Assembly (NCBI GenBank): GCA_020152595.1
Contig: JAIGNY010004485.1
Coordinates: forward strand, 288,501 to 352,500
Direction of reading: 5' to 3'
DNA length: 64,000 bases
From: Chiridota heheva
Taxonomy: Eukaryota; Echinodermata; Holothuroidea; Apodida; Chiridotidae
Shown here: piece after piece, positions 9,801 to 56,174 of the stretch
How positions within the stretch are numbered: the stretch's first letter is position 1
Layout of the letters: every line of letters begins with the position of its first letter
Made by a program: the position numbers and the translations under genes
The notes under the pieces: generated by a model
What the model was told of the DNA's origin: nothing
Database searches by the model: none
Seen by the model: only the letters and a program-made list of their open reading frames with translations

Positions 9801-12800
9801 TGTATTTAAGCTCAAGAGGTCACAATTTTCCATAGATCATCTCTAATGTAAAAGAATAAATGAAAGACATAAAAGCCAAATCTAAAGGTATGGTTGCCGA
9901 CCAGTACACCACAAAAATGTCTTGTTTGGTATTAAATTCATCATTTTTTGGTAGGCTTTTCACATTTTTGAGGTTGTTGTATAACAGATCTTTACATTTT
10001 ATTATAGATATGAAAATTCAATTAACTGTAACTTAACAAATTCTTTAAATTTTTGCTGAAATATTTAACGTTTCTTCTGGCATTTACGTAACATTTTCTC
10101 AGTCAAGAAGTACATACCGCTCTCAATGCTTGCCACTCTTGTTCATGCTTTTATTAGTTTGAGACTTGATTTTTGTAATAGCTTATTTGTTGGTTTACCA
10201 AATTATCAAATTCAACATCTCCAGAAAATTCAAAACCATGCTGCTCGTCTGCTTTCATCCTGCACGAAATTAGACCATATCACTCCAATTCTGTTTAACC
10301 TTCATTGGCTACCTATTCAGTTTAGAATAAAATTCAAAATTCTCATGTTCGCCCATAAATCTGTCTATAAATCCGGACCTTCTTACTTACATTTAAAAGT
10401 TTTTAACCCAATTCGTTTTACCAGACAGTCAACTGCTCCAACTCTTGTTTTACCAAAATTTAATTCTAAATCTGCTGGTCAAATATCTTATTCTGTTGCT
10501 GCCTGTACCTTGTGGAATAATTTACCCGTTCAATTACGTGCAATTCACTGTTACAATGTTTTTAAATCTCAAGTGAAAACCCACCTTTTTAAATGTGCTT
10601 ATAATCTTTAGTCTTTGTTTTATGTATTGATTCATTGTGTATACTTATTTTAGGTATTTCAGTAATTTGTACTTTTACTTTATTTGTTTTACTTTATTTG
10701 TTTATATTTCTTATTCAGCATGTTCAGCTTTTAATCTTTAGTTTAGCCTATGAATTATGTATTGATTAATTGCGTATTTATATTTTAGGTATTTCAATTT
10801 TTTGCTTTTAAATTTCTAGCTTTATACTTCATTTGTTTCATATATCTTATCATTTACTTTACTTACTGATCCGCGGTCTTGACGATTTAGTTCAATGGGG
10901 CGCGTTATAAATATATGTGTATTATTATTTATTATTATTATTCCCTAAACAAAGCAAGTAGCAAATAAGTGCTTTAGTTAACCTGCGGCAATCAAGTGTG
11001 AATAGAAAGTTGTGACTAGATCAATTACGTTGAAGATTTGACGTGGGTATATTATGGACAGTAGAGTAGAGTTTGTTATAAAGAATTGTTTATGCATATA
11101 GCTGCAAAACCAGTTTTTACCAATGTAAGTGTTTAGATCAAGCAAAATTCTTCTGTTCTTTGTAGAACATTCAGGGCCCTCAAACGAAAGCCGTGTTATC
11201 ATGGAGGAACAACCCCCACCTAGTTATAACATATCACAGCCCAAATCAGAGGAGTACTCAGCGGCTTACATCCATGGCGTCATGGACAATCAGATACCAA
11301 AATATGTAGTGGATGACATATGGCAGGTGCCAACTGAGTCGACCCCACAACCAGTTGCTGCAACTACGGTGGTTCGCTCCTCTAGCAAAATATCAACAAC
11401 TGCAGGTGAGATAAAGACATCATCTGTTGCCACGAGTAGACAAGCAGGAAATGACATCATTGATTTGGTCCGTTCTATACCGGCATCTGTAACAGAAACT
11501 TACAACAATGTTATACCAAATGTTGCTCAGGTTCGGACTGTAACTCATGCAATGATTGCAAAGAATACTGTTTCTGATTCACAATCTGAAAGTAAGACAA
11601 GGCTTCCTCAGCCAGCTGAGTCTCGTACCACTCCAAAAGCTAGAAATACATTTACAAAGCCAACAGTGGTTGGTAGAGCTTCTCCAGGGAATCAGGTTAC
11701 ATCAACTGTGAGTAGTAAAGGTTTTCACCCAGCACAGAACTGTCATCAACAAATTGACATCTGATGAAACATTCTCTTCTAGTGAAGTGCAATCACCACC
11801 AAGTTTATCTTTACCCAAAACATCATCAACAAATACAGCAACATCTCTTAAACCAACATCAGTATTGATAACATTACCAGTGCCTAAAACATTATCACAG
11901 AAATCGATATCATCTACCAAAGCAAAATCATCTTTTAGACCATTATCATCATCAAGACCATCAACATTGTCCAAAACAGCATCATTAGCCAGAGCAACAT
12001 CATCAACAATCAGAATATCATCACTCAACACAACTGCACCATCACCTGTACCAACTGTGCCAGTTAAACCCTCATCTTCCAAATCTCCCACAAGTCCCCC
12101 TTTAGTACTAAAGCAAGGTGATGGTTCAGTTTTATCAGCATCTACAGGCAGGACAGTCATGATCACAGATGGTACAACCACCATTAAAACATCAACAACT
12201 TTGGTGCCGACAACCAGTCCAACAACTTCTTTACAAACAACTTCGTTACCAACTACTACTTTGCAAGGAACCACTCACAAAACAACAACAACTAGAACGC
12301 AGACTGAATCAAGAGAGGTAGAAAGCAATGAGGCGGAACTTTATTTTTGGAAAGTGACTGATTACGCTCCTTGCAGTTCCACTTGTGAAAGAGGTAAGAA
12401 CTACTTCTTTAATGTTCTTTTCATGTGTTTTCTTGAGAAATGACTGGAGGATAATAATAATGATAATAATAATAATACATTTTTATATAGTGCATTATAC
12501 CAAACGGTCTCAATGCGCTTTACATAAACAAATATAACATGAGAAAACCTTAAGATACAAACAGTAAGAGAACAAAAAACCATACTTAAAAAAGATACAA
12601 GCAGGATAAAGTTACAAGGTCCAATGAGGGGAACTCATGAAAAGGTGTGTTTTCAATACACTCTTAAAAATATCTAAAGTAGGGGCATTTCTGATGTAGA
12701 TTGGGAGAATGTTCCAGAGTTTGGGGGCTGCAGATTGAAAAGAACGTTCACCGTAAGTCTTGGTGTTAATTTTTGGCGGCTTTAGGAGAATAGCACTGTT

Positions 12801-15800
12801 AGATCTGAGTGAGCGAGTTGGTAATTGTAACGTGATTAAGTTGGAAATATAATTTGGAGCAAGACCATGGATGGCTTTGTATGTGAGGGTGAGAAGCTTG
12901 TAGTTTATTCTTTCACATATAGGAAGCCAATGAAGTTGGTGGAGGTTGGGTTTAATGTGAGATTTTTTACTTGTGAGAGTAACTAATCTGGCAGCAGTGT
13001 TTTGAATGCGCTGAAGCTTTGAGATTTGTTGAGAAGGAAGTCCAAATAAGATACTGTTGCAACAATCAAGTCTGGATGATACAAATGCGTGAATAAGTGT
13101 CTCAGTCGACTTTTGATCAAGATATTTACGAATTTGGCTGATTTTTCTGTGGCAAGTGAAGCGGAGCGGCATATATTATTTACATGTGGCAACAGTGTAA
13201 GCTTATCATCAAAAATAACACCCAGGTCTTTAACCAGGATGCTTGAAGAGAGAGTAAAGTGAAGTTTGTAAAGGGATTAAGAACGAAATTACATTTGGAT
13301 TTTAAACGGTGTAGTAGATGCAAATGGGAAGTGTGGTAGCTCAGTGGTATCAGACTCCTACACTAAGCATACTGGGCTTGATTTCTACCATGCTGTATTC
13401 TTCAGCAAGACACTTCATTTCTGATTGACTCAGTCCATTCAACTTTGAAATTAGGGCTAGCTTGATGGGGAGTAATAGCCTGCAATGAACTAGTGTCATG
13501 TCCAGGCTGAGCCAAGTACTCTCATGCCCCAAGGAAACCAGGGATAAGCACTGGCCTAAAGGCTTGAAAGAATTTAACTAAACTGGAATTATGAGATGCA
13601 AAGCAAGCCCAACAATAACATAAATTTGATGTGTTATACTGCCAACAAATGGATTATTTCTGTTTGTTTCTGATCATCAGTTGGTTAATTTTGTAATTGA
13701 ATGTAATCTCCTCTATTCTCTTCCTTTAACACTGGTTTAGGGCGATTGAAAACATGTTGAATATGTATTATAAAAACTTCTGATAATATTGTAGGTATAT
13801 GCAATTATTTGATCTCTTGAAATATGTCTATATTATAAAACTTCAAATTTTATTAACCTTTTTCCTTCTCTGAAAGGAGTTCAAAGAGAATATGCATACT
13901 GCTATGGAAGGCAAGAAGGGGCTACTGTTGATGATTCTAATTGCAATCCAGCAACAAAACCTAATGTTGTTCCTCGGCATTGTGCTAGCAAGTCATGCAA
14001 AGCAAGGTAAGAAGTCATGCAAAGTAAGGTAAAATGTCATTCAAAGCAAGTAAGTTGTCATGCAATGCAAGGTAAAATGTCATGCAAAGTAAACGAGATC
14101 TCATCACAGCAAGTAAGGTGTCATGCAAAACAAGCTAAGATGTCATGCAAAGTAAGGAAAAAAGTCATGCAAAGCAAGGTAAAATGTCATGCAATGTAAG
14201 TTAAGATGTCATGCAAGCTGAGGAAAGATGTTATGCAAAGTAAGGAAAAAGTCATGCAAAGCAAGATAAGATGTCATGCAAAGTAAGGTAAAATGATAAG
14301 ATGTCATGCAAAGTAAGGTAAAATGTCACGCAAAGTAAGGTAAAATGTCATGCAAAGCAAGAAAGATGTCATGCAAAGTAAGGTAAAATAACATGCAAAG
14401 TAAGGTAAAATGTCATGCAAAGTAAGGTAAAATGTCATGCAAAGCAAGAAATATTTCATGCAAAGTAAGGTAAAATATCATGCAAAGTAAGGTAAAATGT
14501 CATGCAAAGCAAGAAAGATTCATGCAAAGTAAGGTAAAATGTCATGCAAAGCAAGAAAGATTCATGCAAAGTGAGGAAAGATGTCATGCAAAGCAAGAAA
14601 AGTCATGCAAATGCAAGATAAATGTCATGCAAAGTAAATGTAAAATGTCATGCAAAGTAAATAAGATATCATATAAAGGAGTAAGATGTCATGCAAAGCA
14701 AGAAATATGTCATGCAAATTTAGGTAAGGTAAAATGTCATGCAAAGCAAGAAAGATGTCATGCAAAGTAAGTAAAATGTCATGCAAAGCAAGAAAGATGT
14801 CATGCAAAGTAAGTAAAATGTCATGCAAAGCAAGAAAGATGTCATGCAAAGTAAGAAAGATGTCATGCAAAGTAAGGTAAAATGCCATGCAAAGCAAGTA
14901 AGATATCATGTAAAGTGAGTAAGATGTCATGCAAAGCAAGAAATATGTCATGCAAATGTAAGTAAGGGTAAAATGTCATGCAAAGTAAGGTAAAATGTCA
15001 TGCAAAGCAAGTAAGATGTTATGCAAAGTAGGGTAGAATGTCATGCAAAGTAAGGTAAAATGTCATGCAAAGCAAGTATAAAGATGTCATGCAAAGCAAG
15101 GTAAGATGTTATGCAAATCAAGGTAAGATGTGATGTAAAAGTAAGGTAAGATGTCATGCAAAGCAATGCGTAGCAAGTGTAAAAGTCATGCAAAGCAAGG
15201 TAAGAAGTCATGTAAACTAAGGTATAAAAGTCCTGTAAACCAATCATAGGAAGGATCATGTATACGTATGCTTGTTTGTTTACATGATCTTCCCTTACAG
15301 GCTCCCTTATGGAGTATTCATAGCAAGCATTAGCAGATACTGGCAACAGCAAATGCTAGTCTTGTGTTCTAAATACAGAAAGCTTTATATCCATGATTTC
15401 AAACTGCAGTTTGGAAACTGCAATCCAGAAAACTAGACAACAATTTCAAACCTACGAGCTCATTGATGGAAGGTGTACTGTACCACTGATCCACCACATG
15501 TAGGACTTATTCAAGATAAAGGTATGATTGATCAGAATACCATTTTAAAGCTTAATTCATGCAAACAAGTACTTTTCTCTTTTACATTTAAAAACTACTT
15601 TCTAGGTGGGAGATTGGTGAGTGGAGCCAATGCTCAGTAACGTGTGGGAGAGGTTTACAATTTCGTACAATATCTTGCTGGCAAATGGTTGAAGTGGGTC
15701 ATGACCGCTACGTTCATGACAACTTGTGCAAAGAGCCTAAGCCTTCGCATGAATCTCAAGGTTGTGAAATGAAGCCATGTGGAAGCCCAAAATGGCAAGT

Positions 15801-18800
15801 TGGACAGTGGTCAACAGTGAGTATTGTACTGCATGGGATGTGAAAACTTCACTTTCATCTCATAATCAATATTATACTCTCTTCTCCTTTAATTTTGATA
15901 ACTCCTTCACTACTACCCGATGTTTCTCTTTCTACACCTTTTAGTTTGCTTTATTTGATAATATACCATTTGATCCTTTAGGTCATGGTGCTAAACCACT
16001 CTAGCACTATATAACCTTCACTTTTGACATGCAGACAAAGCTCTTCCATCAGTTGTCGTTAGACAAGTGTAACATTAGGATATAATATTTTTAGAATGGG
16101 ATTATTATTACACTAACGTTACAGTCCAATGCTCAAAGTCATATGTTACTACAGTATAGCCTCCTAGACATAGTATCCTTTATCGGCTGAAAATATCAAG
16201 CTTTAAGTTTAACGTAGGCTCAATAATTTAGTTGCTGTCGTACGTACTGTACCAAGGCCTGATGCCTGCAGAAGTTACAAACACATGAACACACAATGAA
16301 AATTCGAGAGCACTTAGCGAATGAAGAACATTTCATTGAGATTAAATCCATGAAAAAACGGATCGCATCATTTGATTGTGGACGAAATGGCCAAAGATTA
16401 TCACAAAAGACTCTCACTTTTGGGTTGAGAGCTCCTTTAACACGATAGAGTATATTCTTTCAAGGTTCATACCCCTATTTACATATAAAGTGAGTATATT
16501 TGGATACCTTCAAGTATATTTGTCACTTTAGACACACTATAGATAGTTTTTACAATCATATCTGCAGACATTAAAAGTGCATGTGCATGTTTTCTCTCTG
16601 CATATATTGTAATATTTGAAGAGGTCACAAAATATGATTTAAAGGCATATTTCTAAATAACATAAAATATTGTTGTCAATAATACTCTTCCACCATATTT
16701 TGGAATAATTCAGCCACCGGTAATTCAGCCAATTATAAAATATGACCAATTTTTCAATGTAATAAAAAAGATTAAAAGAGCAAAAAGAAAGACAAGACTT
16801 GTGCAACTTTGGCCATCTTATATTGCTTATTTGAAAACATTTTTGAAGCTTCTTGGAAGAGTAGGGGTGACAACCTGTCTCTCCTTTACCCTTGTAGCCA
16901 TAATTTGGTTCTGTTCTGTTGCATCATTTTTGCACTTTTTCTCTTTGGCTAGTGCTCAGCAGACTGTGGGGATGGAGTGCAAACACGAGATGTATACTGC
17001 ACTGGCTTAAACGAGTCTCAGTGTGATCCAGAGACCAGGCCAAACGGCCGGCAACACTGCAACATTGCTGCTTGTCTGGAGCGTTGGATTGCTGGACCAT
17101 GGAGCAATGTGAGTTCTTTATCAAATTGCTTGTGGAAGCCTGTATAATTTCATCAGACTTGGGTTCGATTCCCACTCTGGGTACCATGTTGCATTGTTAG
17201 GAAATGAGTACCAGCTTGCTGTGGAGTTAGCTTAAGATGGACTAGTGTACCCTCAAAGAGGAGTCAAGTACTCTCATCGGCTTACACCCTAGAAATTAGA
17301 GATAAGCACTGTCCATAATGGACCTATGTGGCTTGCAAGCTTTAGCTTTAAATTAATACATGAACACATAGTCAGTAGGTGCAGAAATGGGTAGAACAGG
17401 ATTGTTGTTGTCGTCCCAATTTTCAAATCCTTTTTTCTTATTATCCATATATTACAGTCACTATAAATCATTACATCTCCAACCCTACCTGCAAGAGGTT
17501 GAGCATGCTATCTTTTCAAAGATTGCATTAAATTCGACTGTCTTCCTGCCCTGTTACGCTACTTAGACTAATTGAGCCTAAAGCATGATGAGGGTAGCAT
17601 TTGAGGTAACTGTCAGACATCATTCCTACCCAAGTCGGGTAAGCTCTAATATAATATGTAGACCTATAGGCAATACAGTTGGAGAATACAACATCTACAA
17701 AATGTCAATACATGGTGAAATTAGTGAATTGTTTGCCCTGACTGAGCTGAAAATGTAATAATTCAGTGAAGGTTAACCTCCGTGGAGGTCTGCCTCGGTG
17801 GAGGTCTGCCTCGGTGGAGGTCTGCCTAGGTGGAGGTCTGCCTCGGTGGAGGTCTGCCTCGGTGGAGGTCTGCCTCGGTGGAGGTCTGCCTCGATGGAGG
17901 TCTGCCTCGGTGGAGGTCTGCCTCGGTGGAGGTCTGCCTCGGTGGAGGTCTGCCTCGGTGGAGGTCTGCCTCGGTGGAGGTCTGCCTCGGTGGAGGTCTG
18001 CCTCGGTGGAGGTCTGCCTCGGTGGAGGTCTGCCTAGGTGGAGGTCTGCCTCGGTGGAGGTCTGCCTCGGTGGAGGTCTGCCTCGTGTGGAGGTCTGCCT
18101 CGGTGGAGGTCTGCCTCGGTGGAGGTCTGCCTCGGTGGAGGTCTGCCTCGGTGGAGGTCTGCCTCGGTGGAGGTCTGCCTCGGTGGAGGTCTGCCTCGGT
18201 GGAGGTCTGCCTCGGTGGAGGTCTGCCTCGGTGGAGGTCTGCCTCGGTGGAGGTCTGCCTCGGTGGAGGTCTGCCTCGGTGGAGGTCTGCCTCGGTGGAG
18301 GTCTGCCTCGGTGGAGGTCTGCCTCGGTGGAGGTCTGCCTCGGTGGAGGTCTGCCTCGGTGGAGGTCTGCCTCGGTGGAGGTCTGCCTCGGTGGAGGTCT
18401 GCCTTAAGAGAACTGAAAGAAGCTTTAAACTTGGTTGAGAGTGAACGAGAGGCAGGTTTTAGAGGTGTAAATTGAGCGGTGATAAATCAGAAATGAAGGG
18501 ATGGGTGAGAATGTAGGGCAGGTGGAGGTAGGGGTTGGATGGTGTAGGAGCAAGTGGATAAGGGGTGGTGAGATACTAACAAAGGGTATATATGACATGT
18601 TTGTAACATGGTCAGGGTATTTGATTTGTACTGCTCTTGTGGGAAATGTTTCCATTCTGATTTTAATGACTTGAAGCATTAATTCTCTTTTTACCCCAGT
18701 GCCAAAGTAACTGTGGGATTCGGGTGAGGCGCGTGGATTGCTACAGACAGAGCAGACTCATACCAGAAAGCAATTGTGCTGGACAAACAAAGCCATTGTC

Positions 18801-21800: not shown

Positions 21801-24800
21801 AAGTTTGGTTTTAATGGAAGCTATGATATTGATCTTTTGAGTAATGAAAGCAAAATTTGGAGAGAACAAAATTCAATTTTTTACCATTGAACTAGTGTTG
21901 TAGCATATCTTCCCCCTTCCCCCTTTTCCCTCCTTTTCAAATGAGAACATGTTCCTACGCCTCTGCCTACCTATGGTGAATGCCGCAAAAAAAGCAGTAA
22001 ATGTCTGAAGATTCCAGACCAATAATGTTGTGGAATCTTGCAGCAAGATAACCGATTTGTTAGTAAAGGCAAAACACTCACTTGCACCAATGCTCTTCAA
22101 TGGATGGCATTAGAAATATGCATATTTTTTTTGAACAGTCAAACCTGAAAGTGAAATAATTCCTATAGATGGTCACTTAAGATTTGTATTTGTTTTGCTA
22201 TTCACCTGATTTTTTTACAATCTCACTGTCAACCCTAGGTGTCACTTGCTCTGTGAGGCACATCAAGTGTAAACATTAAGCGTCGTCTCTAGGTGTCACT
22301 AGCTCTGTAAGGCACATTAAGTGTAAACATTAAGCATCATCCTAGGTGACACTAGCTCTGTAAGGCACATCAAGTGTAAACATTAAGCGTCATCCCTAGG
22401 TGTCACTAGCTCTGTAAGGCACACCAAGCACATCAAGTGTAAACTTTAAGCGTCATCCCTAGGTGTCACTTGCTCTGTGAGGCACATCAAGTGTAAACAC
22501 TAAGCGTCATCCCTGGGTGTCACTAGCTCTGTAAGGCACATCAAGTGTAAACATTAAGCGTCATCCCTAGGTGTCACTAGCTCTGTAAGACACATCAAGT
22601 GTAAACTTTAAGCCTCATCCTAGGTGTCACTAGCTCTGTAAGGCACATCAAGTGTAAACATTAAGCATCATCCCTAGGTGTCACTAGCTCTGTAAGGCAC
22701 ACCAAGCACATCAAGTGTAAACATTAAGCGTCATTCCTAGGTGTCGCTAGCTCTGTGAGGCACATCAAGTGTAAACACTAAGCGTCATCCCTGGGTGTCA
22801 CTAGCTCTGTAAGGCACATCAAGTGTAAACATTAAGCGTCATCCCTAGGTGTCACTAGCTCTGTAAGGCACATCAAGTGTAAACACTAAGCATCATCCCT
22901 GGGTGTCACTAGCTCTGTAAGGCACATCAAGTGTAAACATTAAGCGTCATCCTAAGTGTCACTAGCTCTGTAAGACACATCAAGTGTAAACTTTAAGCCT
23001 CATCCCTAGGTGTCACTAGCTCTGTAAGGCACACCAAGCACATCAAGTGTAAACATTAAGCGTCATCCCTAGGTGTCACTAGCTCTGTAAGGCACATCAA
23101 GTGTAAACATTAAGCGTCATCCCTAGGTGTCACTAGCTCTGTAAGGCACATCAAGTGTAAACATTAAGCCTCTTTCCCTGAAAAGCACTGTGTAACATTC
23201 TTCTCAAACTGAATTTGCTCAACCTTGGCATAGAGTATATTGTCATTACATATATCAGTGCACTGATTTTTTAGTGATGTGATTGCATTTATATAGCACG
23301 CACAATGTACTTTTAAAAAAGAACAAGAAAAGTATACTTATTATTTCTTCATGTCTCTGCAGAAAGGAATTTATTTTGTATATCATTTTGAATTTATTTT
23401 GTATATATCATCATATACATACTGGAAATAAGTTTTTGTGTGAAGTTTGTATTCATCTGAAACAAAACACTTAACATGTTTATTTGCATTTTGGGGATTG
23501 GGGGTGGGGCAGGAGGGATGGGGGAAGACTTAAAATTCATGTGTAATTGTCTTGAGTTTTGTTAAAACCTTCAGTTTAATTTTAGTTTGTGATTGGGATG
23601 TGATTTTGCAATTAATATGCTGGTAGTGTACTTTACCAGTTTATTGATGATCTAGATTTGTTTGTGTTCAAAAAGAAATCAGTTCTGATCATTTGTTGTG
23701 TTTTAAGGTGCCTATGTTATAATTTAAAACAATGAATTCATATCACAAAAACAAACATTTCTTACAAAAATAAATTGGCATGATTTGTTATATTTCTAGC
23801 CTCAAAAGTGTTATTTCAAATTTACAAGAAATTTAAGGTTTGTTAGGTTTTGTAACGATTGCCAAATTTGATTGATCTTTTCTTATTTAAAAGTCTTCTC
23901 TCATTTTTAAAGCACTGAAACATATTTTTCCTGAGGGCACTAGGTAGGTGTCAAATACCTTACATTCACTTTAAGACACAAACTTGTACAATATGCCAAA
24001 CTTGAGAGTTCAAGTGAATTGGGGTTACATTGTTAAAACAATCTAGGACAGTGTTGACTTTTCTAGAAGACAAATAAAATGATTTATAGGTGCCTAAAAT
24101 GGTAGAGAAACTGAGCTGATTACATCAAGGTAGCTTGCACTTAAGTATTGGTTTTCATGGGGTTTATTATGGATGTAATTTGTAACTCAAAAGCATTTTC
24201 CCATGATGTTTTATGTGGATTTGTATGAAAGAGAAAAACTATCCTAAAATCTTACTCTGTTTAGTAGAAGGATGTAGAAGGATGCAAAAGAGAAAGACTA
24301 CTCCGCATGTTAATAGAAAGAGGAGATCACATGTAGGCCATTTTCACTGAGCATATCACATGTTGGCCATTCTCACTGAGCAGATCACATGTTGGCCATT
24401 CTCACTGAGCAGATCGCATGTTGGCCATTTTCACTGAGCAGATCACATGTTGGCCATTCTCACTGAGCAGATTACATGTAGGCCATTCTCACTGAGCAGA
24501 TCACATGTTGGCCATTCTCACTGAGCAGATCACATGTTGGCCATTCTCACTGAGCAGATCACATGTAGGCCATTCTCACTGAGCAGATCACATGTTGGCC
24601 ATTCTCACTGAGCAGATCACATAATAATAATATTATGTATACTTATATAGCGCACAATCACAACAAAGTTTCAATGTGCTTTACACTTAACATAATAAGA
24701 TAACAGGTTAAGTTCCTAAGCAAATAAACCAATGACAGTCTAATTACCTAAATTAAAAGCACTACGAAAAAATAATGTCTTTACTGACTTCTTAAATGAA

Positions 24801-27800
24801 TTGATATTTGGGCTCCCCTTGACATGATAGGGCAGGGCATTCCAGAGAACTGGCACAGCATAAGCAAACATTCTCTCACCAAACCTTTTGTTAACACGAG
24901 GGACAGCCAATAAATTTGCTGACGCAGAACGAAGGGAGCGACTGGGACAATAAAGGGAAACCAAATCAATAAGATAATGAGGTGCATTGCCTATCAGACA
25001 CTTAAAGATAAAACATAAAACTTTGAATTTAATCCTATAGACTACAGGGAGCCAATATAAATTCTGTAAGATAGGGTGATATGGGCACGGCGAGGTGACT
25101 TAGAGACAATCCTGGCAGCCCTGTTTTGAACAAGTTGAGGTTTACGCAGTGTACTATCAGGAATGCCAGCCAGAAGGGAATCAGCATAGCCTAACTGCGA
25201 TAATACAAGAGATACCATGAGTTTGGCACATGTATCATCATTAAGATAGTACCTTATTTTCAAAATCGAGCGTAAATGAAAATAAGCCGACTTTACAACT
25301 TTGTTTACATGATGGGCCATTGACATGTTAGAGTCAAAAATGGCTCCTAATGTCTTAACTTTCACAGACGGTAGAATGGCCTTATCCCCAACAACTACAC
25401 TGGGGTGAAAACGTTTAACATGGTCACTAGAAGAGGGAGAAGTGATTACTATGAACTCACTGGAAGCATGTAAATACTAAACAAAAGGGGTCCTAAGACC
25501 GAACCCTGAGGGACACCTGTCACAAGATGGCCAGGATTAGAACACACACCATTGATACGCGTACTTTGTTGCCGGTCTATTAGGTAGAAACGCATCCATT
25601 GCAGAACAAGACCAGAAATACGACATCTTGACCGCAACCTGTCTAATAACATTTGATGATTGATAGTATCAAATGCAGAGCTAAGATCAATCAAGACCTG
25701 TAATACACCCTCACCCCTGTCCAGGACAGAGTCAATGTCATTCTTTACTCTGAGAAGAGCAGTTTCTGTGCTATGGTTTGGTCGGTAAGCACTCTGGAAT
25801 GGATCCAACAGATTTTGGTTGATCAGGAATGTCATTATTTGTTTTGCAATGATCTTTTCAAAAATTTAGAAAACAAATGGCATGTTGGAGATAGGTCTGT
25901 AATTCTTGAGTTGCCCAGGATCAAGACAATTCTCTTTCAGTATTGGAGTAACAACTGCATTTTTTGAGCATTCGGGTACAACTCCGCTCGCAAGTGAATC
26001 ATTAATAGAATCCTGTAAAATTGGAATGACCTTGTCAAGAATAACATCTTCCTTAAGCAGCCATACTGGTATAGGATCCAACGAGGGAGATTTGGAAGGG
26101 GCTTTCAAGATAGTCTCCTGCGGATCACTCTGAGAAATTAAATGAAAACTTGTGAGTCTTGCATCCTCAAGCAAAAATCATTGGTTGGGGGTTCAGAATC
26201 CAATGTAACTGATGGTAGAGATTCACAAAGTTTAGCAATCTTTTCCTGAAAAAAGTTGGCAAATCTATTGGCAAGATCTTTTGCATCATCAAATTCAGGA
26301 AGATGCACTTTCTGGCTATGGGTAAGCATATTTGTCAGTCTAAACCTATCCCTTGGAGTGGCATCTTAAAAGATTTTTGATAATATGCTCATTTGGCGAT
26401 ATTAATGGTTTTCACAATCAGACGGCATTGAAAATGGTACATCTGTTTGTCAAGTTCAAGACCAGACTTCAGCCATTTTCTTTCCAGTTGCCTTCTCTTT
26501 TTCCTCTCATTGTGCACATCAGTAGTGTACCAGGGATTACTTCTGGGGCGACGTGATTTGGAAATAACTTCTGGGGCATGATCATCAGAGACTTTTGCAA
26601 GTACTGCATTATATGCATCAAAATGCTTATCACTTGTTATAGCAAGAACCTCAGCAATATCACTTGCAAAGTGTTCCGGATTAACTTTCCTAAATTTGCG
26701 GACATATTATGGAATGGCTTAAGATGTGGGCCTTTCCATATAAAGGGTACACATCACGGGATAGTGGTCACACTGTTCATGTAATTTGAACAGAAACATT
26801 GTTAACCAGACTGCTGTTCTGCCGTGTAATAATAAGATCCAATGTGTGACCTAGCTTGTGAGTGGGGGAAGTCACATGTTGAACCAAGCTCATGGATTCC
26901 AGAATAGAATTGAATTGTCTGGCATCCTTATTTGTAGGATCATCAAGGTGCAAATTGAAATATCCAGTGATTAACAGTTCTTCAGTAGAAAGAATAAATT
27001 CACTAAGACATTTTTCAAATTCCTCAAGAAATTCAGTTGTAGTGAAATTATTAGGAGATGATGGTGGTGGCCTGTAAATAATGAGGCAATTTAGAGATTG
27101 ATCCCTTTTGAGAACTGTTTGTAAATGTTCAAAAGTTCTAAACTTCATCAGTGCTCTGCATTTTTTAATATTTAAGGTATGCCTATGCAGCAAGCAGATC
27201 ACATGTAGGCCATTCTCACTTTGTGGAAAGAGACTTATTTGTAAACAATTATTTTGCAGTATAGGAATATTTGGAAGTTATGTCGTCATAGATTTTGTAT
27301 TGTATACTTGCATACATTTCTTTGCTGTTCCAGGGAGAATGCCAGAACTTGGTATACTGACAGTCAGCGCTTAATTCATAGTCCATTTTGGAATGACCGG
27401 CACAAAACTAGTTTGTACAAATGTACACTGCAGCAGTTTGTTATGCTATGGTGTATTGTGCAAATCCCATCTTTCCCTCTGGGGAGGTGTCCTCATTTAC
27501 CACATTGATGGGATATGGAATCCCTAATATGTGGTATATCACAAGTTTTGAAAAGTTTGGTACCTGTTAAATATAATGAAAATGTACCCCCCTTTTAAAG
27601 GAGAAAATTATGGCAGTTGTATGAAACCTGTATGAAATATTAGTGGATGTTGTAATTACAATTAATAAATAGTAACTGTTTCCAGCTTTCTGATTGGCTT
27701 AAAGGTGGTCTCGAATACATTCGAGACCAGCAAGATGTACATTAGGGGAATAATGATGATCAATTTTGTCCATATATTAACACCCTTATTAAGCATAATA

Positions 27801-30800
27801 AATGTACATCATCCTGGGTCCCAAATGGCACAATTGTAGATTTGTAGTTACTCTGTTTGGCTAATTGATGGTCTGGAATACGTTTGAGAACAGACTGACC
27901 TGTGTGGCAGTTCATGATATATGTGCCCCTTGGAAAAATATTGGCCTACATTGGCAAAATAATGAAAAGTATATCCAAGGATATACAACGAAATATAAGA
28001 AAATGAATGAGAAAAATAAACCAACCACAAAATTCTAGCCACAACAATCATGACTCTCATGAGTCTCAATCAACAGCTCTGGCTTTGATTCAAGAACAGT
28101 CTTTTATAGAAACCATTCTTAATTAATTTATAAAAAGCTAAAATGAGGATTATTAGATTATTTGCCACCCTTCCTCTACTGATCAGAACAGAAATTTAAA
28201 AGCCTTGCAAAGTCAATATTTGGCCCCCAAGTGGTTAAATGCTTTAACGTTTACTGACACTGTTATCAAAAATACCTCAAATTGTAGATATGTAACACTA
28301 TGCATTTGTATTTAATAGTCTGACAGCCCGCCGTGCATACACTGTGCATGTATCAAAACGTTACAGAATGTATTGTTAGCCTAGCCTATTTTGGTCACAA
28401 AACAAATGAGCAACCAACTAACGTTAGCCAATTAAACCTAAATTCAACATCGCAAACTTTCTACATTTCTTCAAAAGAGGCCTAAAAATAAACCTACATT
28501 TATCATTCGAGTCTTACCTTGATTACTAATTCATCTGTGGCTGTTTATACTTTTCCAAGACCTTGTTTTTCAACTTTGTTCTAAATGTTCAGAGTGCTAG
28601 TCTTGTTTCACGATACAGTTTTAATTGTCTGTCAAAACTTGCTAACCTATGACCTGCCCATTTTAATGTATTTCTTTATTATTGTTTGGAAACAATGAAC
28701 AGCTTCTTGCAGTTGTACGAAAGTAATATGAAAAAGACGCTGAGAACAAATATGTGTTTTGTTTCATTAAGTTTGGCGAGTAACTTTAATCTGTACGGTC
28801 AGATCTTTGACTGGTCAGTTGGTCGTTGCAACAAAAAATTAAGAAACGTTTAACTAAATGATGTCACATTTAGTGTTAGAATATTAAAAGTGATCAAAAT
28901 AAATTGCCTTTTTTTTTCAATAATTTAACCTAAAAAATTAGATATTTATGAATGGTGATAAAAGCGAGGGTAGCCGGTCTCAAATGATATTTAAGACCGT
29001 GGATGATGTCAATGGTAGGGCCAGCAGACCTTGGCTATCGCCTCGATCCACTCAAACCCTGCGATGATGTCATCCTTGGGTTTTAAATGGCATTTGAGAC
29101 CGGCCACCCTTGCATGTATCCCCTAAGTAATTTGTTCCCATAATTATCTTTTCTGCCATATAGGTTGATTGTTCAGTGGCATGCCTGGAAAGTATGCAGC
29201 GTGGGGACACATTATTTCCTGAAATAATCTTTGCTCAAATAAAGAAAAACCATTTTTTGAAGATATGCTTTATAATGTTGTTCATTCATAATCGTTTGTC
29301 ATCTAATTACAAGATATTCAGCTATGGTAATTGCTTGCAAAGACCTCTTATGTCTCACAGAACATTCTTATTCTTTAAGTTCCTTTTCTTTAAAGGTGTT
29401 TTTATTGAAAGAAATGGTGACATTTCATGAAAGCAGACTGTAATAATTTAATATCTAGATATAATTGCCTCAAACTAGTCTCTTACATGTATTACCCACT
29501 GTTATTTATCATCTTACATTATGCACAAAAAGCTGTTATGATATAAGCAATTAATTGAATCAACTTTAATGTGTTGTACAGTGTATCTTTAATATGCGTT
29601 GCATATAACCAAGGTCACTTTAAATCTTTATCACAAAATTGTACTTGACCCACAAAATAAAAGTATTTATATTTCTGAAGATATTTAGCCATTTATTAGA
29701 AAAGTTGTGTTTGTGATCTACTGCATGCCTCATTATCAGTGTACATAGATAAACTAAGTATATCTTTATTTGCATATAGAATAATGCAAGAAAATTATGA
29801 ATAATGAAGGAAAATAATACTTGAAGAAAATTGTTGCTTATTTGATCTCCTGTGAGACGAGAGATCATCTTAACTGTAGTACTTGCTTAGAGGTATTAAA
29901 GACTTACATATTTCAAGCAGCACTTGAACAATATGAGAACACTGATTTGTTACTGTTGTTGATTATGTCACCCATATCATACTTGTAAAGGCAAGTAAAA
30001 GTAAATGGGATAGCATTGAGATCACACCAATGTGTGTAACAAAGATTTTGAATATTATATGGTTGAGGATAGGTTTCCTTGAAAACCAGCTCAAGTTAAA
30101 GAAAAGTACTGTAGCTTCATAATATCTTTATGCAGCTATGAAGTTATGTAGCTATGAGTTGAGCTATGAGTTGAGGCTTCTGAGCTTATGTCAAGGTTTT
30201 TTCTTTCAAACTTTGTCAAATATGCAAATTGTTTGATTTATGTAGCACAAATTATGCAGATTACACATTTCACTTGGGATGATATCATTTTGATCCGAAA
30301 ATAATACATGTTTATCCTATATGATCAAGGACATAATAGTCATGAAGGTGTTCATAATCATGTCAAGGAGACATTGAGGCCTAAAATAAAATTGTTTGTT
30401 TGCCCTCCTCCGCCACCCCTAACTCACTGAAAAATAGTGGCGACATTTAAAAAGTTTTTTTTTGTTTTTGTTAAATCCCTACGTTTCGTAAAAATTCCTA
30501 CAAAATGGTGCGGCAACCACTTTTGCATTGCCATATTACCCTTCGTGTAGGGAGAAACTGTTTTGGCAAATACGAGCCACGTGATGCAATGTAATTGATC
30601 ATGTGATCATTCTTTCTCCCCTCTGCTCCATGTGCTTCAAAACTGAATGGAATTTAATGAAAGAGAAAAAATGTCAGTCGGCAGTGGGGTAATTATCTTT
30701 AGTGGTGTTCTTGTGTTGAGTGATGGCTATTATGTCGGTCGGCAGTGTGGTAACTATGTTTAGTGGTGTTCTTGTGTTGAGTGATTGCTATTATGTCGGT

Positions 30801-33800
30801 CGGCAGTGTGGTAACTATGTTTAGTGGTGTTGTTGTGTTGAGTGATTGCTATTATGTCAGTCGGCAGTGTGGTTACTATGTTTAGCGGTGTTCTTGTGTT
30901 GAGTGATTGCTATTATGTCAGTCGGCAGTGTGGTAACTATGTTTAGCGGTGTTCTTGTGTTGAGTGATTGCTATTATGTCAGTCGGCAGTGTGGTAACTA
31001 TGTTTAGTAGTGTTCTTGTGTTGAGTGATGGCTATGTTTAGTGGTGTTGTTGTGTTGGAGGAGTCGGTCGGCAGTGTGGTAACTATGTTTATGTTTAGTG
31101 GTGTTCTTGTGTTGAGTGATTGCTATTATGTCGGTCGGCAGTGTGGTAACTATGTTTAGTAGTGTTCTTGTGTTGAGTGATTGCTATTATGTCGCCGGCA
31201 GTGTGGTAATTCTGTTTAGTGGTGTTCTTGTGTAGTGATTGCTATTATGTCAGTTTGCTATTATGTCAGTCGGCAGTGTGGTAACTATGTTTAGTGGTGT
31301 TCTTTGTTGTGTTGTCAGTGAGTTGCTATGTTTAGTAGTGTTCTTGTGTTGAGTGATTGCTATTATGTGAGTCGGCAGTGTGGTAACTATGTTTAGTAGT
31401 GTTCTTGTGTTGAGTGATTGCTATTATGTCGGTCGGCAGTGTGGTAACTATGTTTAGTAGTGTTCTTGTGTTGAGTGATTGCTATTATGTCAGTCGGCAG
31501 TGTGGTAACTATGTTTAGTGGTGTTCTTGTGTTGAGTGATTGCTATTATCGGTCGGCAGTGTGGTAACTATGTTTAGTGGTGTTCTTGTGTTGAGTGTCG
31601 GTCGGCAGTGTGGTAACTATGTTTAGTGGTGTTCTTGTGTTGAGTGATTGCTATTATGTCGGTCGGCAGTGTGGTAACTATGTTTAGTAGTGTTCTTGTG
31701 TTGAGTGATTGCTATTATGTCGATTCGGCAGTGTGGTAATTCTGTTTAGTGGTGTTCTTGTGTTGAGTGATTGCTATTATGTCGGTCGGCAGTGTGGTAA
31801 CTATGTTTAGTGGTGTTCTTGTGTTGAGTGATTGCCATTATGTCGATTCGGCAGTGTGGTAACTATGTTTAGCGGTGTTCTTGTGTTGAGTGATTGCCAT
31901 TATGTCGGCAGTGTGGTAACTATGTTTAGTGGTGTTCTTGTGTTTGGCTTCGGTCGGCAGTGGTAACTATGTTTAGTGGTGTTGTTGTGTTGAGTGATTG
32001 CTATTATGTCGGTCGGCAGTGTGGTAACTATGTTTAGTGGTGTTCTTGTGTTGAGTGATTGCTATTATGTCGGTCAGTGGTAACTATGTTTAGTAGTGTT
32101 CTTGTGTTGAGTGATTGCTATTATGTCGGTCGGCAGTGTGGTAATTCTGTTTAGTGGTGTTCTTGTGTCGAGTGATTGCTATTATGTCGGTCGGCAGTTT
32201 GCTATTATGTCAGTCGGCAGTGTGGTAACTATGTTTAGTGGTGTTCTTGTGTTGAGTGATTGCTATTATGTCAGTCGGCAGTGTGGTAACTATGTTTAGT
32301 AGTGTTCTTGTGTTGAGTGATTGCTATTATGTCGGTCGGCAGTGTGGTAACTATGTTTAGTGGTGTTCTTGTGTTGAGTGATTGCTATTATGTCGGTCGG
32401 CAGTGTGGTAACTATGTTTAGTGGTGTTCTTGTGTTGAGTGATTGCTATTATGTCGGTCAGCAGTGTGGTAACTATGTTTAGCAGTGTTCTTGTGTTGAG
32501 TGATTGCTATTATGTCGGTCGGCAGTGTGGTAACTATGTTTAGTGGTGTTCTTGTGTTGAGTGATTGCTATTATGTCAGTCGGCAGTGTGGTAACTATGT
32601 TTAGTGGTGTTCTTGTGTTGAGTGATTGCTATTATGTCGGTCGGCAGTGTGGTAACTATGTTTAGTGGTGTTCTTGTGTTGGTGATTGCTATTATGTCGG
32701 TCGGCAGTGTGGTAACTATGTTTAGCGGTGTTCTTGTGTTGAGTGATTGCCATTATTATTCGGCAGTGTGGTTACTATGTTTAGCGGTGTTCTTGTGTTG
32801 AGTGGTGCTATTATGTCAGTCGGCAGTGTGGTAACTATGTTTAGCGGTGTTCTTGTGTTGAGTGATTGCTATTATGTCAGTCGGCAGTGTGGTAACTATG
32901 TTTAGCGGTGTTCTTGTGTTGAGTGATTGCTATTATGTCGGTCGGCAGTGTGGTAACTATGTTTAGCGGTGTTCTTGTGTTGAGTGATTGCTATTATGTC
33001 GGTCGGCAGTGTGGTAACTATGTTTAGTAGTGTTCTTGTGTTGAGTGATTGCTATTATGTCAGTCGGCAGTGTGGTAACTATGTTTAGTAGTGTTCTTGT
33101 GTTGAGTGATTGCTATTATGTCAGTCGGCAGTGTGGTAACTATGTTTAGTGGTGTTCTTGTGTTGCGTGATTGCTATTATGTCGGTCGGCAGTGTGGTAA
33201 CTATGTTTAGCGGTGTTCTTGTGTTGAGTGATTGCTATTATGTCAGTCGGCAGTGTGGTAACTATGTTTAGTGGTGTTCTTGTGTTGAGTGATTGCCATT
33301 ATGTCGGTCGGCAGTGTGGTAACTATGTTTAGTAGTGTTCTTGTGTTGAGTGATTGCTATTATGTCAGTCGGCAGTGTGGTTACTATGTTTAGCGGTGTT
33401 CTTGTGTTGAGTGATTGCTATTATGTCAGTCGGCAGTGTGGTAACTATGTTTAGCGGTGTTCTTGTGTTGAGTGATTGCTATTATGTCAGTCGGCAGTGT
33501 GGTAACTATGTTTAGTAGTGTTCTTGTGTTGAGTGATGGCTATTATGTCGGTCGGCAGTGGTAACTATGTTTAGTGGTGTTGTTGTGTTGAGTGATTGCT
33601 ATTATGTCGGTCGGCAGTGTGGTAACTATGTTTAGCGGTGTTCTTGTGTTGAGTGATTGCTATTATGTCGGTCGGCAGTGTGGTAACTATGTTTAGTAGT
33701 GTTCTTGTGTTGAGTGATTGCTATTATGTCGGTCGGCAGTGTGGTAATTCTGTTTAGTGGTGTTCTTGTGTTGATTGTTGAGTCGGTCGGCAGGTTGCTA

Positions 33801-36800
33801 TTATGTCAGTCGGCAGTGTGGTAACTATGTTTAGTGGTGTTCTTGTGTTGAGTGATTGCTATTATGTCAGTCGGCAGTGTGGTAACTATGTTTAGTAGTG
33901 TTCTTGTGTTGAGTGATTGCTATTATGTCGATTCGGCAGTGTGGTAACTATGTTTAGTGGTGTTCTTGTGTTGAGTGATTGCTATTATGTCGGTCGGCAG
34001 TGTGGTAACTATGTTTAGTGGTGTTCTTGTGTTGAGTGATTGCTATTATGTCGGTCGGCAGTGTGGTAACTATGTTTAGTAGTGTTCTTGTGTTGAGTGA
34101 TTGCTATTATGTCGGCCGGCAGTGTGGTAACCTATGTTTAGTGGTGTTCTTGTGTTGAGTGATTGTTCTTGTAACTATGTTTTAGTGGTGTTCTTGTTGA
34201 TGATTGCTATTATGTCGGTCAGCGCAGTGTGGTAACTATGTTTAGTGGTGTTCTTGTGTTGAGTGATTGCTATTATGTCAGTCGGCAGTGTGGTAACTAT
34301 GTTTAGTGGTGTTCTTGTGTTGAGTGATTGCTATTATGTCGGTCGGCAGTGTGGTAACTATGTTTAGTGGTGTTCTTGTGTTGAGTGATTGCTATTATGT
34401 CGGTCAGCAGTGTGGTAACTATGTTTAGCGGTGTTCTTGTGTTGAGTGATTGCCATTATGTCGGTCGGCAGTGTGGTAACTATGTTTAGCGGTGTTCTTG
34501 TGTTGAGTGATTGCTATTATGTCGGTCGGCAGTGTGGTAACTATGTTTAGCGGTGTTCTTGTGTTGAGTGATTGCTATTATGTCAGTCGGCAGTGTGGTA
34601 ACTATGTTTAGTAGTGTTCTTGTGTTGAGTGATTGCTATTATGTCGGTCGGCAGTGTGGTAACTATGTTTAGTAGTGTTCTTGTGTTGAGTGATTGCTAT
34701 TATGTCGGTCGGCAGTGTGGTAACTATGTTTAGTAGTGTTCTTGTGTTGAGTGATTGCTATTATGTCGAGTCGGCAGTGTGGTAACTATGTTTAGTAGTG
34801 TTCTTGTGTTGAGTGATTGCTATTATGTCGGTCGGCAGTGTGGTAACTATGTTTAGTGGTGTTCTTGTGTTGAGTGATTGCTATTATGTCGAGTCGGCAG
34901 TGTGGTAACTATGTTTAGTGGTGTTCTTGTGTTGAGTGATTGCTATTATGTCAGTCGGCAGTGTGGTAACTATGTTTAGTGGTGTTCTTGTGTTGAGTGA
35001 TTGCTATTATGTCAGTCGGCAGTGTGGTAACTATGTTTAGTAGTGTTCTTGTGTTGGTGATTGCTATTATGTCAGTCGGCAGTGTGGTTACTATGTTTAG
35101 CGGTGTTCTTGTGTTGAGTGATTGCTATTATGTCGGTCGGCAGTGTGGTAACTATGTTTAGCAGTGTTCTTGTGTTGAGTGATTGCTATTATGTCAGTCG
35201 GCAGTGTGGTAACTATGTTTAGTAGTGTTCTTGTGTTGAGTGATTGCTATTATGTCAGTCGGCAGTGTGGTACTATGTTTAGCAGTGTTCTTGTGTTGAG
35301 TGATTGCTTTATGTGGTGGCAGTGTGGTTACTATGTTTAGTGGTGTTCTTGTGTTGAGTGATTGCTATTATGTCGGGTCGGCAGTGTGGTAACTATGTTT
35401 AGTGGTGTTCTTGTGTTGAGTGATTGCTATTATGTCGGTCGGCAGTGTGGTAACTATGTTTAGTAGTGTTCTTGTGTTGAGTGATTGCTATTATGTCGGT
35501 CGGCAGTGTGGTAACTATGTTTAGTAGTGTTCTTGTGTTGAGTGATTGCTATTATGTCAGTCGGCAGTGTGGTAACTATGTTTAGTGGTGTTCTTGTGTT
35601 GAGTGATTGCTATTATGTCGGTCGGCAGTGTGGTAACTATGTTTAGTGGTGTTCTTGTGTTGAGTGATTGCTATTATGTCGGTCGGCAGTGTGGTAACTA
35701 TGTTTAGTGGTGTTCTTGTGTTGAGTGATTGCTATTATGTCGGTCGGCAGTGTGGTAACTATGTTTAGTGGTGTTCTTGTGTTGAGTGATTGCTATTATG
35801 TCGGTCGGCAGTGTGGTAACTATGTTTAGTGGTGTTCTTGTGTTGAGTGATTGCTATTATGTCGGATTCGGCAGTGTGGTAACTATGTTTAGTGGTGTTC
35901 TTGTGTTGAGTGATTGCTATTATGTCGGTCGGCAGTGTGGTAACTATGTTTAGTAGTGTTCTTGTGTTGAGTGATTGCTATTATGTCGGTCGGCAGTGTG
36001 GTAACTATGTTTAGTAGTGTTCTTGTGTTGAGTGATTGCGATTATTATGTGTGGGTCGGCAGTGTGGTAACTATGTTTAGTAGTGTTCTTGTGTTGAGTG
36101 ATTGCCATTATGTCGGTCGGCAGTGTGGTAACTATGTTTAGCGGTGTTCTTGTGTTGAGTGATTGCTATTATGTCGGTCGGCAGTGTGGTAACTATGTTT
36201 AGTGGTGTTCTTGTGTTGAGTGATTGCCATTATGTCGGTCGGCAGTGTGGTAACTATGTTTAGTGGTGTTCTTGTGTTGAGTGATTGCTATTAACTTCAT
36301 TTGCTGATGTATACATAAAATGATAGTTGATGAAGACGATATCCATACAGAGGTCCAAATTGCAAAAAGAATAAATTTTTTCTGCCCGCCCCTCTCTTTT
36401 TTTTACAAGAAAGGGTAAACAAACAAGTTTTTTCAGGCCTTATACAGTTCTGTTTGTTGTGTTGGCCATTCATTGTGAATTTCCAATGCTTGCAGATGCT
36501 TATTTGGCTTTACAGCTATATATTTAATTAACTTGACAATATCCCCAATCTTTGTACAGCCATAGCTCAGAATATATGAAATTGTTTTACAAAATGTAAA
36601 GACTGTACCACTCTATTTGTAGAATCTGTTCAACACACTGTATGATTATAACAAATATTTGTGAGGTGCCCTTAGTCCCCAAACTGTTCTACCTCATAGC
36701 GTACAATATCATTCATTTTGGCCAATGAGAATATGACATCAATACCACAACAAAGATATTTGCCATATTTACATTCATTATCTCAACTTCTTCTCCATTT

Positions 36801-49727: not shown

Positions 49728-52700
49728 ATATCGTCCCTCCCCTTTGACCTGCACTGAGCACTTTAAAGATATGATAAAATGGTTAGTATTCAAGTATTGC
49801 TGTCTGATAGAACAGTCCCCTGCACCTACAAATTTGTCTATAGATGATTACAACCCAATTCTAAACTTCTCTTACGAAATATCCTTTTACTATTCCTGTT
49901 TCTGTCTGTTAACTGATTTGTAAAATGCATGGCAGCCATCAAAACTGCCTCCTCGCTCTCTACCTTTTCAGCAGCGGATTAATTTTTAACTTTCGTTCCG
50001 CGCTGCTACTTCAGATGGCAGAGGCAAGTCTAAGAAATAAACACTCAGGATGACTGTTAGTTGTAATAGAAATTGGGGAGTTTCCCGAAAGGTAATGACC
50101 GATGACGCTCTGGACTTGGGAGTCGCTTTTATGACAGAGATAAGTTCATAATATTTGGAGCAGGTTCTTGACTTATTCCCGATGAAAGGAATTTCTCTCA
50201 TGAATCTAAGTTCCGAATTTTTGGTTTGACCACGCTTGAGTTGAGTCTGAGTACGTGGTGATATGATTCAGGTTTTCAAATTTCTATCTCGTGGTGATGC
50301 TTTGACGATGACGACTTCTTCTTCTCCTCCTCCTCCTGTTGTTGTTTTCAGCAAATCCTCATGTGACACGTGGTAACTGATTGAAGTTGACCAAAGTGTT
50401 CTCACGTATTGATGTTCGGCGTTTCAGTTTTCGCAAAGAGTTGTTAATGAGAGCCAGGAATGGTTTTCCCTAGTGGGTGGTTAGTTCCAATTCCGTTCAC
50501 AATTTCAAAGTCAATATTGATACATTCTTTACTAACTGCGCGTCTTTAATATTGTGTATTTTTCTGTATTTTCTTTTGTGATGGTAATGTTAATTTGGAT
50601 GTTTTATGGGGAACTAAACCTTCTTATTCTGTCATCTCGTTATGTTATTCACAAAAGCTTTATCAGTTTAGTCAAACTTGAACTATGCTTTCTGCATTGT
50701 TTGTTTGCCCCAACTGAACGCCATATTCAGCCTATGCAAACGATTTTTAAGCATACCAACTCAATTATCTTGACGTACCATCTTATAACAAATATTTGTT
50801 AAATGTTACACTGAACTATATAAACATGTATATTTGCTCATGGTAACTGCAATAGGTATGATCGTATGTATGAATAGAAAAACATGATCACTATCATAAA
50901 ATGAGTCACAAGAAAAGACCGCATTGCAAACTACAGACTGGAGTCAGGTAATATGCTAACACGGCTAATGCGATGCGTAATTTTCGTTAATGATGAATTT
51001 CAAACTTATGGCATAAAATTCAAGAAATTTCTATAATAACCATAGGCCTAGTTGACGATTCATCTAGATATGAAATCAGCAGTCATGGCAGCATGGGTGT
51101 AGTGTAGATATAATGTTTAAGGTTTTTATGGATAACAACAACAACTTCAACTTAGATGGAAGAAAATAGCCACAAACAATGAACAAAATCATCAAAATTT
51201 AATAAGAAGGAGAAATTATTTAGATACAATATAGTACAAAAATCATGTTGATTTGTTATTCCTACCTGCAGGAGAAATTCACATTTAAGGTTCAAAAAAT
51301 GCCTATAAACGAATAGGAAAAGGTTTAGTATGACATCACAACAAAACACATTCTCCCACAAAGTTGATGTATTTCCTTAAAATCTATCATCTTTTTTATT
51401 AGCAAAACCTGCTACAAAAATAAATTGATAATGTTCGGTATTTATCTACATTGCCAAATATACCCTACTTCAGTTACTTTTGGAATTTTTTCTAATCATA
51501 CAGAAACAACCAATTAACATTCAAAGAAATACATAAACATTTGCAATGGAATTGCCTCTATGACAACATCAAACACGATTTCATCATACTGTACAAAAAC
51601 TTTAAAATGCTATTGGGAAATCTTTAAAAATCCATCTCCTTAACGGAATATGATGTAAACCTGATTTTTGTACCAGCTTGGCTCTAAAAGTATACTCTTT
51701 TAAATAAAATCTTACAAAAAAAAAAAAAAAAAAACATGGGGTAGTTCCTTTAAGTATAAAGCATTGTAGGGAAATAGCTAACAGGGTCATGATAGCTCTG
51801 TGACTTTTGACCTTGTGACCTCATAAGTTTACGGACACAAGGTATCATGTGCCAAGGTATCATGGTACAACATAAGGTTGGCAGAGGTCTTGCCACTTTT
51901 GGAGTTTAAAAATGCCATTAATTACCCTTCCAAAAATAAGGGGGTAAATGACTAAAAGCGGTCACTAGTTCTGTGGCATTTCACCACTTGACCCCAAATT
52001 TACAGGACAAAAGTTCATGTACTAGGGTATCATGGTACACCATAGGGTTGGTACAGATATTGCCCTCTTGGAGTTTAAAGTATTACTATATTGTACAAAT
52101 TACCACATAAATAATTACCCCCTAAAATCGCATATTTGACCATTAATTTTAACCACCAAAACAACATCTGAATTTTTTTGGCATTTATCTTACCTATTAT
52201 TTGACACCACCCAAACTCAGATCACTCTTACGATTCCAATACTATGGGGGGGGAGGAGATGGGGGGCTAAAAGAGGTCACTAGCTCTGTGACCTTTGAAC
52301 TTTTCACCTCAGAGTGTATAGGTCTTGCACTTTCGGAATTTAAAGTTGCACAAAAATGTACTAATTAGTACATAATTACCCCCTAAAATGAGCGAGGGGA
52401 GGGAGGAAGCGAGGGGGAGGGAGGGAGGAAAGGAGGGAGGGAAGAAAGGAGGGAGGAAGGGAGGGAGGGAGGAAGGGAGGGGGAGGGAAGAAGGGAGGGA
52501 GGAGGAAGGAGGGGGGAGGAGGAAGGAGGGGGAGGGAGAGGGGAGGGATGGATAAAGGGAGGAAGGAATGGGAGGAAGAGAGGAAGGAGGGACGGAGGGG
52601 AGGAAACGAGGGAAGGAGATAGAGGGAGGGGGGAGGGGGGGAGGGAGGAGGGGAGGGGAGGGGGAGGAAGGGGGGAGGAGCGAGGGGAGAAAGGGGAGAG

Positions 52701-52945
52701 GGAGGGGATGGAAAGGGAGGGAGGGGGAGGGGAGGGAAGGATGGAAGGAGGGATTCTTTAGCTTTTAACAGGTTTTTTAAACCTAATTTATAGCGCAAAT
52801 GAGCTATCAACTACAAAAGTTATACCCCAATTGGATTACACATTGGGAGAAATCCCCAAACGGGATATCAAGCTCGATTAGCCTATGTGCCAGACGGTAT
52901 TTTGACGCTCCCGCCGATTAAAACACAGCTTTATTTTAATCGTAT
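49728..52945. repeat. 3.2-kb tandem duplication, copy 1
   Basis: The copy begins ATATCGTCCCTCCCC and repeats from 52946 with offsets of 3218 (left) rising to about 3225 (right) owing to small indels. It contains no recognised gene. Its small minus-strand open frame (49986-50201, 71 residues) is identical in both copies. The right part has diverged sub-repeats with CACTAGCTCTGTGACC and GGTATCATGGTACA (51770-52360), then a polypurine tract. Confidence 0.97.
52389..52753 (+). repeat. Polypurine GGGAGGAA tract, copy 1
   Basis: About 365 nt almost wholly G and A on the plus strand, with runs of GGAGGGAGG. It gives Pro/Ser/Leu-rich minus and Gly/Arg/Glu-rich plus open frames, which are low complexity. 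Confidence 0.95.
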
Positions 52946-55900: not shown

Positions 55901-56174
55901 AGCGAGGGGGAGAAAGGGAGAGAGGGAGGGGATGGAAAGGGAGGGAGGGGGAGGGGGAGGGAAGGATGGAAGGAGGGATTCTTTAGCTTTTAACAGGTTT
56001 TTTAAACCTAATTTATAGCGCAAATGAGCTATCAACTACAAAAGTTATACCCCAATTGGATTACACATTGGGAGAAATCCCCAAACGGGATATCAAGCTT
56101 GATTAGCCTATGTGCCAGACGGTATTTTGACGCTCCCGCCGATTAAAACACAGCTTTATTTTAATCGTATATAT
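52946..56174. repeat. 3.2-kb tandem duplication, copy 2
   Basis: Near-identical to copy 1. Visible differences are mostly in homopolymer runs (A run at 51716-51734 versus 54942-54953) and in the polypurine tract, plus rare substitutions such as ATTACCCTTCC versus ATTACCATTCC. The copy ends CGTATATAT before unique sequence TCGGTGG. Confidence 0.97.
55612..55977 (+). repeat. Polypurine GGGAGGAA tract, copy 2
   Basis: The counterpart of 52389-52753 in the second duplicate, with similar ends but many internal length differences. Confidence 0.95.

Follow-up and report, generated by a model that had tools for sequence, protein, structure and literature searches.

What gives rise to an intron that opens with copy after copy of the end of its own preceding exon? 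The question is raised by a 64,000-nucleotide stretch of the Chiridota heheva genome (the window, contig C3622:288501-352500 of a 1.1-Gb assembly), in which an ADAMTS-like gene on the + strand, encoding thrombospondin type-1 repeats (TSR), hosts a tandem array at the 3' boundary of one of its exons, here called exon B. We consider it very probable that the array is a splice-junction minisatellite, or 'mirage', of the kind known from amphioxus, formed by a short duplication and later expansion and largely a neutral by-product.

The array is made of exon end and donor

The features on which this reading turns are the following.

13877..14006, + strand: exon B, GVQREYAYC...SCKAR; the repeat unit takes its exonic half from the last 15-17 bases
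14007..14012, + strand: authentic donor AAG|GTAAGA, deduced from the frame, which continues as R|W into the next exon
13990..15230 (edges approximate), + strand: mirage array, ~56 units of ~22 bp, from Tandem Repeats Finder and a hand-anchored split
15183..15212, + strand: last intact unit, with the same bases as the junction at 13990-14019 and holding a decoy donor at 15200
15606..15816, + strand: exon C, WEIGEWSQCSVTCGRG...WQVGQWST, with acceptor AG at 15604-15605 and predicted donor ACA|GTGAGT

Tandem Repeats Finder delimits a 22-bp unit at 13992-15163 (53.5 copies, 77% matches) and a further stretch at 15172-15243 with the last partial unit, while the hand-anchored split yields 56 units from 13991 to ~15230. 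A first-pass annotation, made from the sequence alone, had set the start of the array at 13984; we correct this to near 13990. It had also proposed that the array is built from the exon end and its own donor, and the units agree with this: those of ancestral type carry the last 15-17 bases of exon B followed by the donor side, GTAAGAA. As in a mirage, the boundary is spanned by tandem repeats that include exonic bases. Both terminal copies have the AAGTCATG...GTAAGAAGTCATG form, with other variants in the middle of the array, and the likeness of about 30 bases claimed between the last intact unit and the junction is an identity (30/30 bases). Exon B ends GCAAG|GTAAGA in phase 2 and joins 15606 in frame as R|W; the joined protein of exons B and C matches Pfam TSP1_ADAMTS at 6.4e-14, with its best stretch in exon C.

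The window is rich in minisatellites, with 15 tandem arrays over 14,522 of its 64,000 bases (22.7%), and an unrelated satellite might therefore lie beside the exon and resemble it through chance or gene conversion into the exon. We regard this as extremely improbable, since the last intact unit repeats the junction without a mismatch over 30 bases and the exon end codes for the end of a TSR that joins in frame to another TSR. Moreover, an exact search of the assembly with the junction 20-mer GTCATGCAAAGCAAGGTAAG returned three matches, all three at the array locus and none elsewhere. Its confinement to this locus argues against a dispersed repeat.

Donor-like sites within the array

Donors were scored in bits with a donor matrix. 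The donor at 14007 scores 6.09 bits, with a U1 pairing of -9.5 kcal/mol. Among the 120 GT sites in 14004-15250, 52 score 0 or above and 33 at least 2 bits, and the score of the real donor is reached by five, itself included. Between 14013 and 15240, 32 sites score 2 bits or more, where shuffled sequence has a mean of 7.2 and none of 200 shuffles comes to 32; eight score 4 bits or more, where the shuffles average 2.4 and 1 of 200 comes to eight. The earlier description of dozens of donor-like sites, about twenty of them with AAG|GTAA, is thus accurate: AAGGTAA occurs 21 times in 13992-15240 and AAG|GTAAGA five times, the real site being included in both counts. As in a mirage, the splice signal is present in many copies and not in all. 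Scoring the copies with a donor model, as the annotation had suggested, upholds the abundance of donor-like sites, but the units are unequal and few match the real donor. The strongest, besides the one at 15200, are listed here.

14724..14729, + strand: strong decoy donor TAG|GTAAGG in unit u34, 5.75 bits, +717 from the real donor
15101..15106, + strand: decoy donor identical in sequence to the real one
15123..15128, + strand: decoy donor identical in sequence to the real one
15146..15151, + strand: decoy donor identical in sequence to the real one

The four decoys that equal the real donor (15101, 15123, 15146 and 15200) lie 1,094 to 1,193 bases downstream of it. The commonest remaining sites are AAA|GTAAGG (16 copies, 3.16 bits) and AAG|GTAAAA (16 copies, 1.57 bits). 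Exons C and D in the same gene have predicted donors of just 2.74 and 2.91 bits, so the weaker sites of the array should not be written off as dead. Splicing from any of the downstream donors would read AGG TAA, an in-frame stop beginning at intron base 2, as had been foreseen on first reading.

Could the array then act as a decoy, its downstream donors being used or binding U1 and so lowering productive splicing, with misuse leading straight to a stop? Sites of at least 3 bits occur at 23.5 per kb in the array and 0.77 per kb in the rest of the window, the 16 AAA|GTAAGG copies outscore the donors predicted for exons C and D, the TAA at intron base 2 would end any misspliced frame, and there is a precedent in human IFI6, where repeat-unit donors are reported as used (PMC4526556). 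We nevertheless judge such leaky splicing quite unlikely. The real donor outscores most copies, just one site within 0.5 bit of it falls in the first 1.09 kb (the one at +717), and amphioxus mirages are reported to splice accurately (PMC3087553, PMC3902484). Most likely, the first copy is the functional donor and the rest are removed with the intron.

Arrays of the same kind at other junctions

A profile search of the genome with PF19030 gave at least 94 TSR matches, exon B not among them, and the flanks of 73 were examined. Eight of the 73 loci belong to one coding 168-bp repeat on C1784 and were set aside, leaving 65 exons and 130 junction sides; the donors in this census are predictions, namely the best-scoring nearby site. 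A script flagged arrays that include exonic bases at three donor sides and one acceptor side (4 of 130 junctions), and L030, a paralog of L027 missed by the script, was added by eye.

L038: donor mirage, 63-bp unit, 19 copies, ACTACTCAAATTCA|GTGAGT, with GTGAGT intact in 19 of 19 and -1 changed in two
L047: donor mirage, 83-bp unit, 6 copies, the first ~70 bases exonic, with CAG|GTAAGA unaltered in all 6 aligned copies
L027 and L030: paralog pair, less clear, 19-bp unit with 3-4 exonic bases only and an ambiguous donor
L073, C2883:320772-320915, minus strand: acceptor mirage, 43-bp unit, 21 copies, ...CTGTGCAG|TGCTCAA

At the L047 locus a second 83-bp array follows the first, and 11 copies of CAG|GTAAGA are present, the real one included. 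The L073 copies consist of a polypyrimidine tract, AG and the first exon bases, and AG is kept in 21 of 21.

When 115,799 random points were placed in the same loci, 1.1% per junction side fell in a terminal array unit, and ~0.7 donor and ~0.7 acceptor matches are therefore expected among 65 exons. A Poisson calculation by hand gives ~0.035 on the donor side and ~0.06 for both sides together. Tandem arrays cover 17% of the TSR census loci, and the number of mirages is roughly that of a genome with such coverage, with a possible, mild enrichment on the donor side.

At seven loci (L040, L053, L056, L061, L065, L069 and L084) arrays abut the splice site without exonic bases and were not counted as mirages; those at L040, L053, L056, L065, L069 and L084 end ~10-60 bp from the TSR splice site. 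The repeat that was set aside, C1784:214055-215389, holds eight TSR matches (L015, L017, L019, L021, L022, L024, L025 and L029) in one tandem repeat of 168-bp period; it sits in a 521-aa open frame and may reflect recent amplification of the domain within coding sequence.

Decay of donors along the array

We called the donor core as -1, +1, +2 and +5 and averaged the exon part over 12 columns, leaving out the highly variable C11. Across 55 units the core is changed at 37.7% of sites, compared with 4.4% for the 12 columns of the exon part. By alignment, none of the 49 units u2-u50 has an intact core, as against 4 of the 6 units u51-u56; in this count the alignment overlooks AG|GTAAG of u34 and scores it as changed. 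Fisher's test of u2-u13 against u51-u56 gives p 0.005, with units that are not independent. Donors are damaged by change of +1 to A, C or T, by deletion of +1, by change of +2 to A and by change of +5 to A.

Such a pattern is what might be left if selection had disabled array donors near the exon and spared the distal ones. The contrast between core and exon columns, the split between proximal and distal units and the several distinct routes of damage all speak for this purging, as does L030, where 6 of 10 decoy rows have A at +1 (a column count of 7 in the alignment includes one misaligned intact copy). In a simulation of neutral growth, none of the 2120 runs kept (of 7200) matched the observed core change; the simulation overstates the case, because it was conditioned on low change in the exon part. 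With the 22 columns treated as exchangeable, the probabilities are weak: p 0.037 and 0.053 for summed change, and, for units hit, 0.04-0.10 with three- or four-column cores and 0.11-0.29 with +1 and +2 alone. Two columns outside the core, +7 (A31) and C11, are as variable as the core or more so, a C-to-T change gives many of the same units a GTAAGG donor, and u34 bears the intact site that the alignment missed. Elsewhere in the genome, L038 has kept GTGAGT in all 18 decoys (two of them with a changed -1) and L047 has kept CAG|GTAAGA in all 5 aligned decoys. The excess of donor decay in the array appears suggestive but weak. Given the weak result of the proper test and the intact decoys at L038 and L047, we do not claim purging, which we think rather unlikely.

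How the array may have formed

That the array grew from the junction itself, a possibility raised in the first-pass annotation, is well supported by the exonic bases in its units and the ancestral-type unit at both ends, and further by the arrays of the same kind at other junctions. The order of units and the ancestral form at both edges point to growth by slippage or unequal exchange. In the sequence of events that we favour, a short tandem duplication across the boundary of exon B and its intron would come first, perhaps primed by the 3-bp AAG at 13990-13992 that is repeated after the donor. Slippage or unequal exchange would then extend the copies over ~1.2 kb of the intron; the outermost one would stay in the exon, held by coding constraint. 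The spliceosome would take the first copy (14007), by position and strength, and the array would be spliced out with the intron, as a largely neutral by-product of a minisatellite-dense genome.

Three points weigh against this account. The use of 14007 as donor is deduced from the reading frame; the donor core is altered far more often than the exon part, which neutral growth explains only weakly; and the three donor-side cases among 65 exons, where ~0.7 are expected, leave room for seeding directed to junctions.

The array might alternatively be a step towards a new intron or exon through tandem duplication of AG|GT, as in the Rogers model. AG|GT is present in each ancestral-type copy, the model has been proposed for amphioxus mirages (PMC3087553), and a potato case is reported (PMC4974935). 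We find this very unlikely here, as the intron's acceptor lies ~360 bp beyond the array and not within a copy, and the exon frame runs into a stop in the first array unit.

A broader proposition would be that junction minisatellites recur genome-wide at donor and acceptor ends, perhaps beyond lancelets, and that with age their near-exon decoys are disabled faster than the adjacent exon-derived bases. We hold this to be unlikely; if true, the arrays would offer a natural, clocked record of how selection acts on the choice of splice site. Mirages place many equal or graded copies beside the real site in a natural gene, and the parts played by first-copy position, strength and distance in donor choice are therefore testable. 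The four further mirage loci in one domain family, the less clear paralog pair counting as one, suggest that a minisatellite-rich genome could yield such arrays in numbers.

Other features of the gene and the window

Two further exons of the gene flank those described above.

12345..12393, + strand: end of the preceding exon, TSR start WKVTDYAPCSSTCERG, donor GAG|GTAAGA, phase 1, from sequence and joined frame
16953..17108, + strand: TSR exon after exon C, CSADCGDGVQTRDVYC...WSN, from PF19030 match L042 and joined frame

The piece at 12345..12393 gives a partial Pfam TSP1_ADAMTS match (E 0.011) that is under the family cut-off. Between the array and exon C, at 15291-15300, is a good acceptor-like TCCCTTACAG, after which the frame, read by eye, is open for ~44 codons and then meets TAG. 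At ~17160-17190, GGGTTCGATTCCCAC...ACCA resembles by eye the T arm and end of a tRNA and is perhaps a tRNA-derived short interspersed nuclear element. Rfam at gathering thresholds gave no matches in the window.

The largest array of the window, at 30671-36293, has 92 copies of a 61-bp unit. Another, at 24320-24622, has ~10 copies of a 29-bp unit that matches 27193-27220 (best 28/28 bases), within a frame that by eye resembles a long interspersed nuclear element; this array may therefore be coding-seeded too. The stretches 49986-52764 and 53204-55989 each hold one identical 93-aa frame and similar GGGA-rich arrays, which suggests a ~3.2-kb tandem duplication.

Comparison with known systems

Among the papers listed by literature searches on boundary minisatellites, IFI6 is the sole case outside amphioxus that we recognised, and others may be in print; for the earthworm metallothionein gene, intronic minisatellites are described with no boundary-spanning unit in the text examined (PMC12783039). 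Intron gain by tandem duplication, with its reported potato case (PMC4974935), likewise starts from a duplication across an intron/exon boundary. It differs in that no new intron between array copies is indicated here, and the two splice sites do not both come from copies, the acceptor at 15604-15605 being outside the array.

Isoforms of IFI6 made from downstream repeat donors keep the reading frame open. In our array the stop at intron base 2 would close the frame for every downstream copy, and its donors are candidates by sequence. The two are alike in having repeat units at an exon end, which in IFI6 (6-16) are able to act as donors, downstream units being reported as used in this way (PMC4526556); the minisatellite work is cited as Turri 1995 in PMC2572611.

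The closest likeness is to the mirages of amphioxus, minisatellite-like tandem duplications of exon/intron boundaries that PMC3087553 describes in globins (BflGb6 and BflGb9) and Adh3, with further cases in TnC and PGBD5 (PMC3902484). Many of their copies contain AG/GT and alleles differ in length. The authors of PMC3087553, who propose the Rogers model of intron gain for mirages, note that copies could act as cryptic sites, while Adh3 data and globin reverse-transcription PCR indicate regular splicing without sign of interference. BflGb6 differs in scale, with 6 and 3 units in its two haplotypes (PMC3087553) against ~56 in this array. The mirages reported in these papers are from cephalochordates; in the present 1.1-Gb assembly, searches for the GFP family and for COX1 gave no match, which for GFP is no proof of absence. 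According to these accounts, donor and acceptor sides both occur in amphioxus as they do here, the edge copies are the least homogenised, and the 10-72 bp range of units in Adh3 covers the ~22 bp of the array at exon B.
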